Assembly (NCBI RefSeq): GCF_004358445.1 | Contig: NZ_CP037951.1 | Span: 2,157,501 to 2,221,500 of the forward strand | Source: Parashewanella tropica | GTDB taxonomy: Bacteria; Pseudomonadota; Gammaproteobacteria; Enterobacterales; Shewanellaceae | Length of the DNA: 64,000 nucleotides | Direction: 5' to 3' | Part shown: positions 31,312 to 34,912 of the stretch, piece after piece | Numbering within the stretch: the first letter of the stretch is position 1 | Layout of the letters: the number at the start of each line of letters is the position of its first letter | Made by a program: the position numbers and the translations under genes | The notes under the pieces: generated by a model | The model's input: the letters and a program-made list of their open reading frames with translations, nothing else | Database searches by the model: none | Told to the model about the DNA's origin: nothing

Positions 31312-31941
31312 CTATAAAACTAGAGGACGCTTATTTTCAAACAGCAGTTTTGCAGCTAGGGATTGGAATAAAGAAATCACTGAAGATGTCCCCCAATAAA
31401 GACCAATCGCAGACGACACATTCAACAAACTGATCAAACAGACTACACTCATCAATGCAATCATTGCATAATTTACACTGTCAGCTGCACTCGGCATAAA
31501 ATACATTGATAGACCTGTTATAAACGCAACGGCCACACTCAAAAATATATCTGACTTAGAAATATCAGCAATCCAAGCTAATCTGCCCGACAAGGCAATA
31601 TTACTTAGGCCTTGGAACATCCCAATACCTACAACGGCTTGAACCATCATGTTTAGGACAGTGTTTTTACTCATTAGAGAAACGCCGTTTGATTTATACA
31701 ATTCCATAAGTTTCTGGGATTGTAAAACAGGATCTTTAGAATATTTTTCCTTTAATACTTCTATTTCAGGCTTTAATTCAGCTAATTTTTGCATATTCGA
31801 AAATGTTTGCTTAAGAGATGCAAAAGAAATCGGCATTAAAATAAGGCGTATTACTAGAGTAAACACAATTACAGCTAGGCCGGAAGATAATGTTAATTCT
31901 GATTGTAAGGTGTTAATAGCTGACTGAAATAGCCAATCCAT
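31312..31941 (-). CDS. Short stand-alone YidC/Oxa1-family insertase homologue
   Basis: 209 residues comprising only the conserved Oxa1/YidC membrane core, with five hydrophobic segments; the large periplasmic domain (P1) of proteobacterial YidC is absent. The groove arginine is present (LVIRLILMPISF, Arg32), followed by the cytoplasmic hairpin LKPEIEVLKEKYSKDPVLQSQKLMELYKSNG. The C-terminal segment SSAIGLYWGTSSVISLFQ matches the last YidC helix. The normal yidC would lie in the rpmH-rnpA region, so this is probably a second paralogue of unknown client. Confidence 0.82.
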   Translation of the reverse strand: MDWLFQSAINTLQSELTLSSGLAVIVFTLVIRLILMPISFASLKQTFSNMQKLAELKPEIEVLKEKYSKDPVLQSQKLMELYKSNGVSLMSKNTVLNMMVQAVVGIGMFQGLSNIALSGRLAWIADISKSDIFLSVAVAFITGLSMYFMPSAADSVNYAMIALMSVVCLISLLNVSSAIGLYWGTSSVISLFQSLAAKLLFENKRPLVL

Positions 31942-32362
31942 GATAATTCCATTTAGTTAAGACATATTATGTCAACTAAGTTAATCGATCATTTGAATAG
32001 TGTCAACGGCAAAACTCTAGGGCGTGTTGAACTATCGTGATTATTTTTGCAGCGATAAATTGGTTATCTTATGCAAGGCAGAGTTTGTGAAGTGTGGTTT
32101 CTCCACATAAACAAACGATAACGCGGCAGAAGTGACCAATTTACGCTGTCTTGATGCTTTTGAGCACTTCCTGTTCTGTGTTGTGATCAGCTCACTTAGA
32201 TGACTAAGCTTCACTGCTCACGCCTTGAACAGAAAGGTGCTCAAACAGCACAAAATTCAATCCAGAAAGATCAACGATGAGATGGTCTCCTCCTCTTATC
32301 GGCATCACAATGTGCCAGACTTGGAAATAGATTATTCAAGTTAACAGAGTGAGGAGACCACT

Positions 32363-33385
32363 ATGAAGATTACTACAGTAGGCCTGGATTTAGCAAAAAA
32401 CGTAAGCCACTTTGTTGGTTGTAATCAAGCTGGAAAAATCGTTAAAAAGAAAATGCTTAGTAGGAAAGACATTTTGCCTTTCTTTGCTCAGTTACCCAAA
32501 TGTTTAGTGGGGTTAGAATCTTGTGCCAGTGCTCATTATTGGGCAAGAGAGATTGAGAAGCTTGGACATATCGTCAAGCAAATCGCACCTCAATTTGTAA
32601 AAGCTTATGTTCGTGGCAATAAGAATGATTACAACGATGCTTTAGCCATAGCTGAGGCTGTTGTGCGACCAGAGATGCGATTTATTCGAACTAAAACTCG
32701 CACTCAACAAGATATTCAAGCACTTCATGTTATGCGAAAAAAATGTGAACGTGATAGAACAGCGAATACCAATGAAATTAGAGGATTACTCATGGAATAC
32801 GGCATTGTTATTCCACAAGGTATTCATAACGTTTATAAGAGGTTACCAGAGCTGTTCGATGCAAATGTAGAAAACGGACTCAGCAACTTATTCAAAGAAT
32901 TACTAAAACAGCATTATAAAAAATTGGAACAGCTACAAGAGCATTTGGATGTTTACACTCAAAAAATCAAAGAGCTTAGCAAAGTAGAAGCCTGTGTAAA
33001 ATTACAGAGCATTCCAGGTATAGGGCCAATTACAGCTAGTGCGTTTTATCAACATGTGGGTAACGGTAGTGAATTTAAAAATGGGCGCTGCGTCTCAGCT
33101 TCACTAGGTTTGGTTCCAAAGCAACATAGTTCTGGTGGCAAAGATAAGCTTCTTGGGATAAGTAAACGGGGTGATGGTTATTTACGAACCTTGTTAATAC
33201 ACGGAGCGAGAGCCGTGATAAGAGCCAATGTGGGTAAAGAGACCAAGTTGGCTCAATGGATAAAGAAATTAGAAAGCACTCGCGGCCGAAATAAAGCTGC
33301 TGTTGCGTTAGCGAATAAGATGGCTCGTGTGGGTTGGGCTTTAATGATAAATGACAGTAGTTATCAGGCCGATTACGCAGCCTGA
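32363..33385 (+). CDS. IS110/IS1111-type DEDD transposase
   Basis: 340 residues. The N-terminal RuvC-like DEDD domain shows TVGLDLAKN (Asp9), GLESCASAH (Glu52) and GNKNDYNDALAIAEA (Asp89, Asp92). The C-terminal Transposase_20 domain contains IPGIGPITASAFYQHVG and SSGGKDKLLGISKRGDGYLRTLLIHGAR, including the serine believed to form the DNA link. The ribosome site GAGGAG lies in the copy of the repeat at 32351-32360. This family recombines at RNA-guided sites. Intact. Confidence 0.94.
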   Translation: MKITTVGLDLAKNVSHFVGCNQAGKIVKKKMLSRKDILPFFAQLPKCLVGLESCASAHYWAREIEKLGHIVKQIAPQFVKAYVRGNKNDYNDALAIAEAVVRPEMRFIRTKTRTQQDIQALHVMRKKCERDRTANTNEIRGLLMEYGIVIPQGIHNVYKRLPELFDANVENGLSNLFKELLKQHYKKLEQLQEHLDVYTQKIKELSKVEACVKLQSIPGIGPITASAFYQHVGNGSEFKNGRCVSASLGLVPKQHSSGGKDKLLGISKRGDGYLRTLLIHGARAVIRANVGKETKLAQWIKKLESTRGRNKAAVALANKMARVGWALMINDSSYQADYAA

Positions 33386-33631
33386 TAACAAGAAACAATA
33401 TTAACTATAATCATTCCAAAGGATTGCTCAATAAAAAGTAACCGATGACAAACAGGTAAGACCGACATATCGAAAACCTGATAGGGCTGATGAGTTCATA
33501 ACTCGTGTCAACGATAAGGACGATATGTGCGAAGTTCATCAAGGCTCGAAACCCAAGTGTTTCAACAGAGAAGTCGGATATACGAACGCAAACCTATCCC
33601 TGTCAAAAACTATTTTTTATGTTGCAATATT
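33386..33631 (+). ncRNA. Candidate guide (seek/bridge) RNA region of the IS1111-type element
   Basis: Non-coding segment between the transposase stop and the right subterminal repeat, where IS1111-type elements encode their guide RNA. A long-range stem ACATATCG (33465-33472) with CGATATGT (33521-33528) encloses a hairpin GAGTT/AACTC (33492-33504). A later CGG/GTCGG block (33567-33579) could pair with CCGAC before it. Ends of the RNA cannot be set by eye. The target it should match is the MITE end around 32271-32275/33648-33656. Confidence 0.5.
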
Positions 33632-33652
33632 GGAGGAGACCATATACACGCC

Positions 33653-34912
33653 CTAGCCATAAAACCAATAGCAAACACCTATTGCCGCTAATGCGCCTGC
33701 TAAATCAGCTATCAGACCGCAGGTAATGGCATGACGACCATTTCGAATACCCACTGATCCGAAATATACCGCTAACACATAAAAGGTTGTCTCTGAACTG
33801 CCTTGAATAATGGCCACTAAACGCCCTGCGAATGAATCAACACCATCATGTTGCATGGTTTCAAGCATTAATGCTCGTGCACCGCTGCCGCTAAAAGGCT
33901 TCATCAAGGCGGTTGGTAATGCATCAACAAATCTTGTATCGAAACCAAACCAGCTAACAACACTTGCTATTGCTTGAAGTGCGACATCCAACGCACCAGA
34001 AGCTCTCAATAGGCCAATGGCTATTAACATGGCAAGAATGTATGGAATTAATTGAATCGCTTGACCAAAGCCTTCTTTGGCACCATCAATAAACTCATCA
34101 TAAACAGCCACTTTTCGATATCCAGCTACAAGAATAAAACTGAAAATCAAACACAGTAAAATACCATTACCAAGCACAGTTGATATTTCACCTATGGCAG
34201 CTGCACTCAATGTAGTCAGATAAGCAACCAGCGCCATCAAGCCACCAATTAATAGCGCCCCGTAACCAAGTATGACGGTATTCAATAATGAAATTCGTTG
34301 CGCAATCGCTACCGCAGTTAAACCCGCTAACGTTGAAGCGCTAGTAGCTAATAGAATAGGCAAATATACATCGGCGGGATTGGCGGCACCTTGTTGTGCT
34401 CGATATAGAAATACAGTGACTGGAATTAGCGTTACCGATGAGGTATTGAGAACCAAAAATAAGATTTGCGCATTTGAAGCTACGGTTTTTACAGGATTGA
34501 TGGATTGTAGATCCTGCATGGCTTTTAAACCAAGTGGTGTTGCCGCGTTATCCAACCCAAGAACATTAGCCGTGAGATTCATTGTCACACTGCCAAATGC
34601 AGGATGCCCTTTTGGTACTTCAGGCATTAATTTGGCAAGTAAAGGCTCAGTAAACTTGGAGATCAAACGGATCATCCCTGCTTTTTCACCGACACGCATT
34701 AGCCCCATCCATAGGGTTAGTACGCCTACTAAACCAATAGCGATATTGGCAGATAACTTTGAGCTATCAAATAATGCTGTCACAGAAGCGCTAATGACTG
34801 AAGTATCACCATAAGCAACCTTGCCTATAATGACCACAAAAGCAACAACAAAGAAATACCACCAAATACGGTTTAGCAAATGAACACTCTCTAAAATTCT
34901 GGCTGAAATCAT
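33653..34912 (-). CDS. SpmA-SpmB-like fused nucleoside-recognition (Gate) membrane protein
   Basis: 419 residues in two halves. Each half has a Gate/nucleoside-recognition domain: the first resembles SpmA (LTLWMGLMRVGEKAG, NLTANVLGLDNAATPLGLKAM), the second SpmB (MKPFSGSGARALMLE, IIQGSSETTFYVLAVYFGSVG). About ten membrane segments. The family is named from spore maturation proteins, but this host is not a spore-former; transport of a small solute is a guess. Its TAG stop (33653-33655) lies in the CTAG end of the adjacent MITE. SD AGGAG is only two bases from the ATG. Confidence 0.82.
   Translation of the reverse strand: MISARILESVHLLNRIWWYFFVVAFVVIIGKVAYGDTSVISASVTALFDSSKLSANIAIGLVGVLTLWMGLMRVGEKAGMIRLISKFTEPLLAKLMPEVPKGHPAFGSVTMNLTANVLGLDNAATPLGLKAMQDLQSINPVKTVASNAQILFLVLNTSSVTLIPVTVFLYRAQQGAANPADVYLPILLATSASTLAGLTAVAIAQRISLLNTVILGYGALLIGGLMALVAYLTTLSAAAIGEISTVLGNGILLCLIFSFILVAGYRKVAVYDEFIDGAKEGFGQAIQLIPYILAMLIAIGLLRASGALDVALQAIASVVSWFGFDTRFVDALPTALMKPFSGSGARALMLETMQHDGVDSFAGRLVAIIQGSSETTFYVLAVYFGSVGIRNGRHAITCGLIADLAGALAAIGVCYWFYG

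Follow-up and report, generated by a model that had tools for sequence, protein, structure and literature searches.

The 64,000-nucleotide stretch of Parashewanella tropica DNA analysed here (the window) contains an IS1111-family insertion sequence (IS) which is very probably active or recently active, with a transposase guided by an RNA encoded 3′ of its gene. What the IS recognises is a short sequence, which that guide RNA most likely reads. Because the guides read TCAAC and GCCCTA, its usual landing site would be the terminal repeat common to an IS5-family element and its MITEs, and other places with similar letters are also used.

The region 32017–33656 is a MITE (approximately 260 bp) with the IS inserted near its right end. 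The left and main part of the MITE (32017–32275, forward strand) begins with an intact terminal repeat, CTAGGGCGTGTTGA (32017–32030), contains no internal ORF of 60 or more amino acids and ends at the IS junction TCAAC. The right terminal repeat, TCAACACGCCCTAG, is split, i.e., its first part runs to TCAAC at 32275 and its remainder, the right-end fragment ACACGCCCTAG, lies beyond the IS at 33646–33656 (forward strand). A preliminary description of this DNA had placed an IS1111-type element exactly in a MITE terminal repeat with a shared AC, and this is what we find, with a 1370-bp IS (32276–33645, forward strand) splitting TCAACACGCCCTAG. The coordinates it gave, 32017–33656, mark a real span, but one that covers the MITE plus the IS rather than the IS alone. 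The 14-letter MITE repeat, with up to two mismatches allowed, occurs twice in the window versus 0.20 expected, and 3 of 100 shuffles reach two. Splitting its terminal repeat probably stops this MITE copy from moving.

The IS has perfect 11-bp subterminal inverted repeats, TGGTCTCCTCC on the left (32283–32293, forward strand) and GGAGGAGACCA on the right (33632–33642, forward strand), and outside these lie a 7-bp left extension (GATGAGA) and a 3-bp right extension (TAT). Such an arrangement defines the IS1111 group, whose subterminal inverted repeats measure 11–13 bp and are extended by 7 bp on the left and 3 bp on the right (available text of PMC11187229). The core dinucleotide AC flanks the IS on both sides (left junction 32274–32275, forward strand; second AC 33646–33647), and, in a group described as making no target duplication, one of the two may be assigned to the core or to the IS itself; uninterrupted sister sites in Alteromonas alba and Parashewanella curva have a single AC. 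The transposase (32363–33385, forward strand, 340 aa) is a DEDD recombinase of the IS110/IS1111 type, another feature of the group, and matches Pfam PF02371 (E 2.1e-22) and PF01548 (E 1.3e-13) and NCBIfam NF033542 (317.5 bits against a cut-off of 140). Residues D9, E52, D89, D92 and S257 are invariant across ten aligned transposases, and when a profile of the ten is aligned to IS621, they fall on its catalytic residues, given as D11, E60, D102, D105 and S241 (available text of PMC11208158).

Non-coding sequence 3′ of the transposase gene holds a predicted bridge RNA/seekRNA (33455–33590, forward strand, from an alignment of 33 RNAs), in which a target-binding loop is followed by a donor-binding loop. 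All four guides lie on the forward strand. The right target guide (RTG), UAGGGCUG (33482–33489), is complementary to the top strand of the target, and the left target guide (LTG), UCAAC (33508–33512), has the same sense as that strand. The right donor guide, UUCAUC (33535–33540), pairs with GATGAG of the IS left extension with one G-U, and the left donor guide, AUAUAC (33578–33583), is the same as the IS right end plus the core; the donor guides were read by eye. Judged from sequence and covariation, this 3′ guide-RNA region appears to have the IS1111-group order, with the top-strand match 5′ of the bottom-strand match. We propose that the DEDD recombinase would be guided by an RNA transcribed from this region, whose first loop would pair in the cell with the two target halves (on the top strand through RTG UAGGGCUG and on the bottom strand through LTG UCAAC) and whose second loop would pair with the joined IS ends of a circular form. 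Recombination at the common AC core would then insert the IS.

When the regions 3′ of the transposase are compared among the window, P. curva, A. alba and Shewanella olleyana, they are strongly conserved, with differences concentrated in two slots. Slot 1 complements the right half of the target (UAGGGCUG in the window, UAGGGCGG in S. olleyana, UAGGGGCU in A. alba and UAGAGGGC in P. curva), and slot 2 repeats the left half (UCAAC; in P. curva, GGAAC).

This covariation of guide and target extends to a wider set of relatives. We inspected 59 of 80 relative loci for ends (the 21 others are mostly partial or end-of-contig matches), and 20 of the 59 were without one or both ends by the end patterns used. 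The 43 guide entries comprise 39 inspected loci, including L045 and L097, which were retained with stops in their transposase frames, plus the window element, the two further copies of it in the genome and S. olleyana. Once duplicate guide sets and the two additional copies of the window IS are set aside, 37 distinct guide sets remain. Across these, an RTG pairs on average with 7.14 of 9 positions in its own target and with 3.52 in the targets of other elements, with two registers of slot 1 allowed for own and foreign targets alike, while the LTG agrees at 5.38 of 7 positions with its own target and at 2.07 with those of other elements. No permutation out of 10,000 reached the own-target mean for either guide, in a test that ignores the relatedness of the elements, which can inflate agreement. 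With duplicates counted, 40 of 43 entries have the same base in the core and in the donor guide. Poor fits occur at L064 (2/9, with an apparently doubled right end) and L104 (3/9). Around position 3770 of L064, a Shewanella relative, two IS right-end sequences stand close together, and this may explain the poor guide match there. The window RTG fits each of its three sites at 6/9 (a score of at least 7 is attained by 31 of the 37 guide sets), and the window LTG agrees with the third site at 3/7.

Support for the structure of the guide RNA comes from the alignment, given that the window RNA alone folds no better than shuffles (z −0.84). The alignment contains 33 of the 43 entries, without repeats, L049, L060, L047 and L074 (the last two were missed by the pattern). 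Both-sided changes occur in 20 of 28 predicted pairs, and in the hairpin that separates the two target guides 90% of cells are paired, a share that falls to 19–42% when it is slid. For this hairpin, one of five measures (further pair types) is not above shuffles (309/500), and one of its five pairs fails in 13 of 33 rows. Rfam gave no family up to E 1 on window positions 31900–33800.

Close relatives use both the same kind of site and a different one. We surveyed 152 genomes of the family, scoring up to two candidates per genome, so the counts are lower bounds. Among the matches listed, only P. curva has another whole-IS match, and S. olleyana has two large IS pieces. The A. alba transposase is 75% identical to that of the window, and its element sits in a MITE-like repeat with left end CTAGGGGCTGTTGCTC that has five matches in the A. 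alba genome; of the four other matches, two were read, and both of these sister copies show the uninterrupted site AAAGATCAACAGCCCCTAG. The S. olleyana element is broken over two contigs, so its flanks may derive from different copies. Its right flank begins ACACGCCCTAG, and its left flank lies in a MITE-like family with at least 67 matching pieces (40 of 84 candidates scored).

The P. curva relative has a transposase 79% identical to that of the window and is inserted in GGAGGAAC/GTCCTCTCACG. Its guides (RTG UAGAGGGC, LTG GGAAC) correspond to an occupied site of GGAAC/GTCCTCT, which lies within a group II intron, as Rfam RF02012 matches there and over the same stretch in all three uninterrupted intron copies tested. 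We looked at 14 of 15 intron loci (19 matches): the site stretch is uninterrupted in 11 of the 14, eight of them with the exact expected letters, and the other three are the one occupied copy and two in which the stretch was not found. As judged from these sequences, the P. curva relative appears to have been retargeted to a group II intron site through altered guides. This intron (L119 / G017:C76 and L251–L265) is multicopy in Parashewanella, with 12 matching pieces in one genome (G020) and five in another (G017). In another family genome, around position 1389 of L143 (G026:C61), a leftover IS right end (approximately 80% identical) is followed by TTGGCCCTAGG, which is close to the MITE-end sequence. 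A palindrome pattern was also counted in the genomes of seven relatives, in a badly designed test whose matches were not linked to insertion sites. One genome stood out, and in each of the others the pattern was either no commoner than its reversed control or very rare.

The P. tropica genome holds three IS copies, identical over 1370 of 1370 bases, which suggests that the IS moved recently. The window copy and copy 2 (L032) lie at the same base of two differing MITE copies. Copy 3 (L033) lies outside any MITE, between converging M17 aminopeptidase and endonuclease I genes, in one arm of a perfect hairpin (AAAACAGCCCCTAG...CTAGGGGCTGTTTT) which bears AACAGCCCCTAG and looks like an intrinsic terminator. 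The idea that only the MITE is targeted was therefore rejected. Once the IS and a single AC are removed, all three occupied sites read AACA(CG, GG, GC)CCCTAG and match AACANNCCCTAG. The preliminary description asked whether IS copies always sit at the same base of the repeat; that base was hit in the second MITE copy and in the MITE-like repeats of A. alba and S. olleyana, while copy 3 is outside the MITE. It would have been contradicted by IS copies at unrelated sites lacking any match to TCAACACGCC, which is not what we find, the third site agreeing at 6 of 10 letters. Its view that the MITE as such is recognised is not supported, as one copy is in a terminator-like hairpin and the P. curva relative is in a group II intron.

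Guide-free recognition of the MITE repeat, or of a hairpin form of it, by the transposase alone is very unlikely. The copy-3 hairpin (fold z −4.64) points that way, as do 9 of 34 joined insertion sites which fold with z below −2 (nine further sites were skipped, and L064 and L104, though counted in the guide pairing, were excluded from folding). However, the four MITE sites fold ordinarily (z −1.03 to +0.94), for which reason we rejected hairpin recognition, and the 79%-identical transposase of P. curva uses an unrelated sequence, with the guide slots of its RNA changed to match. The guide–target permutation test likewise counts against guide-free recognition. Two relatives, L041 and L068, also appear to sit in hairpins.

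The two remaining alternatives are less probable again. Copying of the MITE plus IS as one unit, with the common position reflecting a single insertion, would account for two of three copies being at the same MITE base, but we consider it extremely improbable and rejected it: the host MITEs are 93% identical (approximately 7% apart), with right repeats ACACG versus ACAGG, while the IS copies are identical, so the two are separate insertions; in addition, the third copy is outside a MITE, and the same position is used in other species. Equally improbable is chance, i.e., that a loosely specific IS landed in a common repeat, a reading favoured by there being only three copies and by the approximately 590 sites that satisfy a crude guide score, and opposed by the sharing of AACANNCCCTAG at 3/3 sites when its uninterrupted form occurs just 31 times in 4.22 Mb, and by related elements in two other genera hitting the same base of similar-ended repeats.

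The 31 uninterrupted occurrences of AACANNCCCTAG, counted on both strands, compare with four for a reversed-pattern control. Mobile-element (MITE or IS5-type) ends account for 23 of them: 18 are at MITE matches, and the other five comprise both ends of the IS5 element, a solitary IS5-type end and a pair of short palindromic repeats whose ends are alike. The remaining eight are elsewhere, one being the other arm of the copy-3 hairpin. The 23 long MITE copies have 46 ends between them, 26 of which carry an uninterrupted motif of the AACANNCCCTAG kind. Many insertions at other MITE copies had been predicted, but despite these motif-bearing ends there are three IS copies in total, two of them in a MITE. 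The crude guide score is unweighted, and approximately 590 genome sites equal the window’s own site by it (extrapolated from nine in the window, of which one is the MITE left end and one is inside the RNA region), while approximately 30,000 equal the third site. Guide pairing as read here therefore does not alone explain why all copies are at AACANNCCCTAG, and unmodelled position weights or features must sharpen the choice of site.

The MITE belongs to a family with ends TAGGGC..GTTGA and TCAAC..GCCCTA, with variants. Using its left 265 bases as a query, we found 31 matches in the 4.22-Mb genome (two are pieces of one copy), 23 of which span most of the query. An 858-bp element in the same genome (G000:C1:1360154–1361011) encodes an IS5-family transposase (NF033580, 276.9 bits against a cut-off of 110). 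Both of its ends are identical at 18/18 positions to the GGGG-type end CTAGGGGCTGTTGATCTT present in MITE copies such as L016, so by sequence this element is likely the MITE parent; the window MITE’s own left end agrees with the IS5-element end at 14/18 positions (by eye). As expected of an IS5-derived MITE, the copies are short, non-coding and multicopy, and their inverted ends are common to the autonomous element. The outer ends of the MITE are TA...TA, often CTAG, and in four congeners without the MITE the corresponding empty site has diverged. With MITE copy L002 as the query, at least 89 of 152 genomes of the family contain matches (up to five candidates per genome were scored, making counts lower bounds), and outside the genus most of the matches listed cover about half of the query. 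Two near-palindromic repeats of approximately 60 bases (L213 and L214; G000:C1:2845300–2845700 and 3627100–3627500) have ends like those of the MITE and the IS5 element.

IS1111-family elements in transposon ends are not new. For example, IS4321 and IS5075 are said, in work attributed to Partridge and Hall (2003), to lie in the terminal repeats of Tn21-family transposons. They resemble the window IS in being IS1111-family elements in a transposon terminal repeat but differ in their target, which is a Tn21-family transposon and not an IS5-type MITE. To this the published record adds REPs, attC sites and MITEs as locations of IS1111 elements, and the closest case is in Coxiella burnetii, where 20 of 21 annotated IS1111 copies lie beside QMITE2 (available text of PMC5896051). 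The suggestion that IS1111 elements aim at mobile-element repeats thus has a MITE precedent. In both systems an IS1111-family element is found repeatedly in one part of a MITE, but the Coxiella site is a GTAG-type palindrome within the MITE, whereas the window IS uses a terminal repeat common to an IS5-family element and has had its guides read (compared with the same available text of PMC5896051).

Guide RNAs of this type are also known. The seekRNAs of ISEc11, ISKpn4 and ISPa11 resemble the predicted window RNA in lying in non-coding sequence downstream of tnp, in elements with 7-bp and 3-bp extensions, and in having a top-strand match 5′ of the bottom-strand match; the targets of these elements differ from that of the window IS, and the window RNA is a prediction from sequence (available text of PMC11187229). 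The bridge RNA system of IS621 is alike in its DEDD plus serine recombinase, its target- and donor-binding loops and its 2-bp core, but IS621 belongs to the IS110 group, in which the RNA mostly lies at the left end, and it has a CT core and lacks long subterminal repeats (available text of PMC11208160 and PMC11208158). Our literature coverage, outside which lay most subscription papers and ISfinder, yielded no account of the window element, nor of any IS1111 element inserted in a group II intron or at the ends of an IS5-type MITE. We take the window IS to be clearly a fresh instance of an already described type of element, one that offers a useful example of retargeting in nature.

Its value lies in forming, with its relatives, a natural series of closely related RNA-guided ISs whose greatest differences lie in the guide slots and whose host sites belong to different mobile-element families. 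Such a series makes the pairing rules of IS1111 guides testable, including which core-adjacent mismatches are tolerated. Targeting multicopy mobile elements may, these data suggest, offer an RNA-guided IS many sites of little harm to the host. We rate as an even chance the broader reading, taken as a whole, that this IS lineage parasitises other mobile elements. On this reading its guide RNA is matched to the multicopy element that happens to be plentiful, which would be IS5-type MITE ends in Parashewanella, Shewanella and Alteromonas but a group II intron in P. curva, and it would switch targets through changes at roughly twelve guide nucleotides.

On one side of the MITE lies a gene for a 209-aa protein with a 60KD_IMP (YidC-type) domain (PF02096; 31312–31941, reverse strand), and on the other a gene with a nucleoside-recognition (Gate) domain (33653–34912, reverse strand). 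In all four congeners, the 330 bases beside the Gate-domain gene contain neither the MITE nor the IS, and in three of these four the adjoining gene also differs. For copy 3, no orthologous empty site could be identified, as none of the four congeners has the same sequence past the aminopeptidase gene. The CTAG of the MITE end provides the stop codon (TAG) of the Gate-domain gene, which the four congeners without the MITE end with TAA or TGA (stops read by eye).
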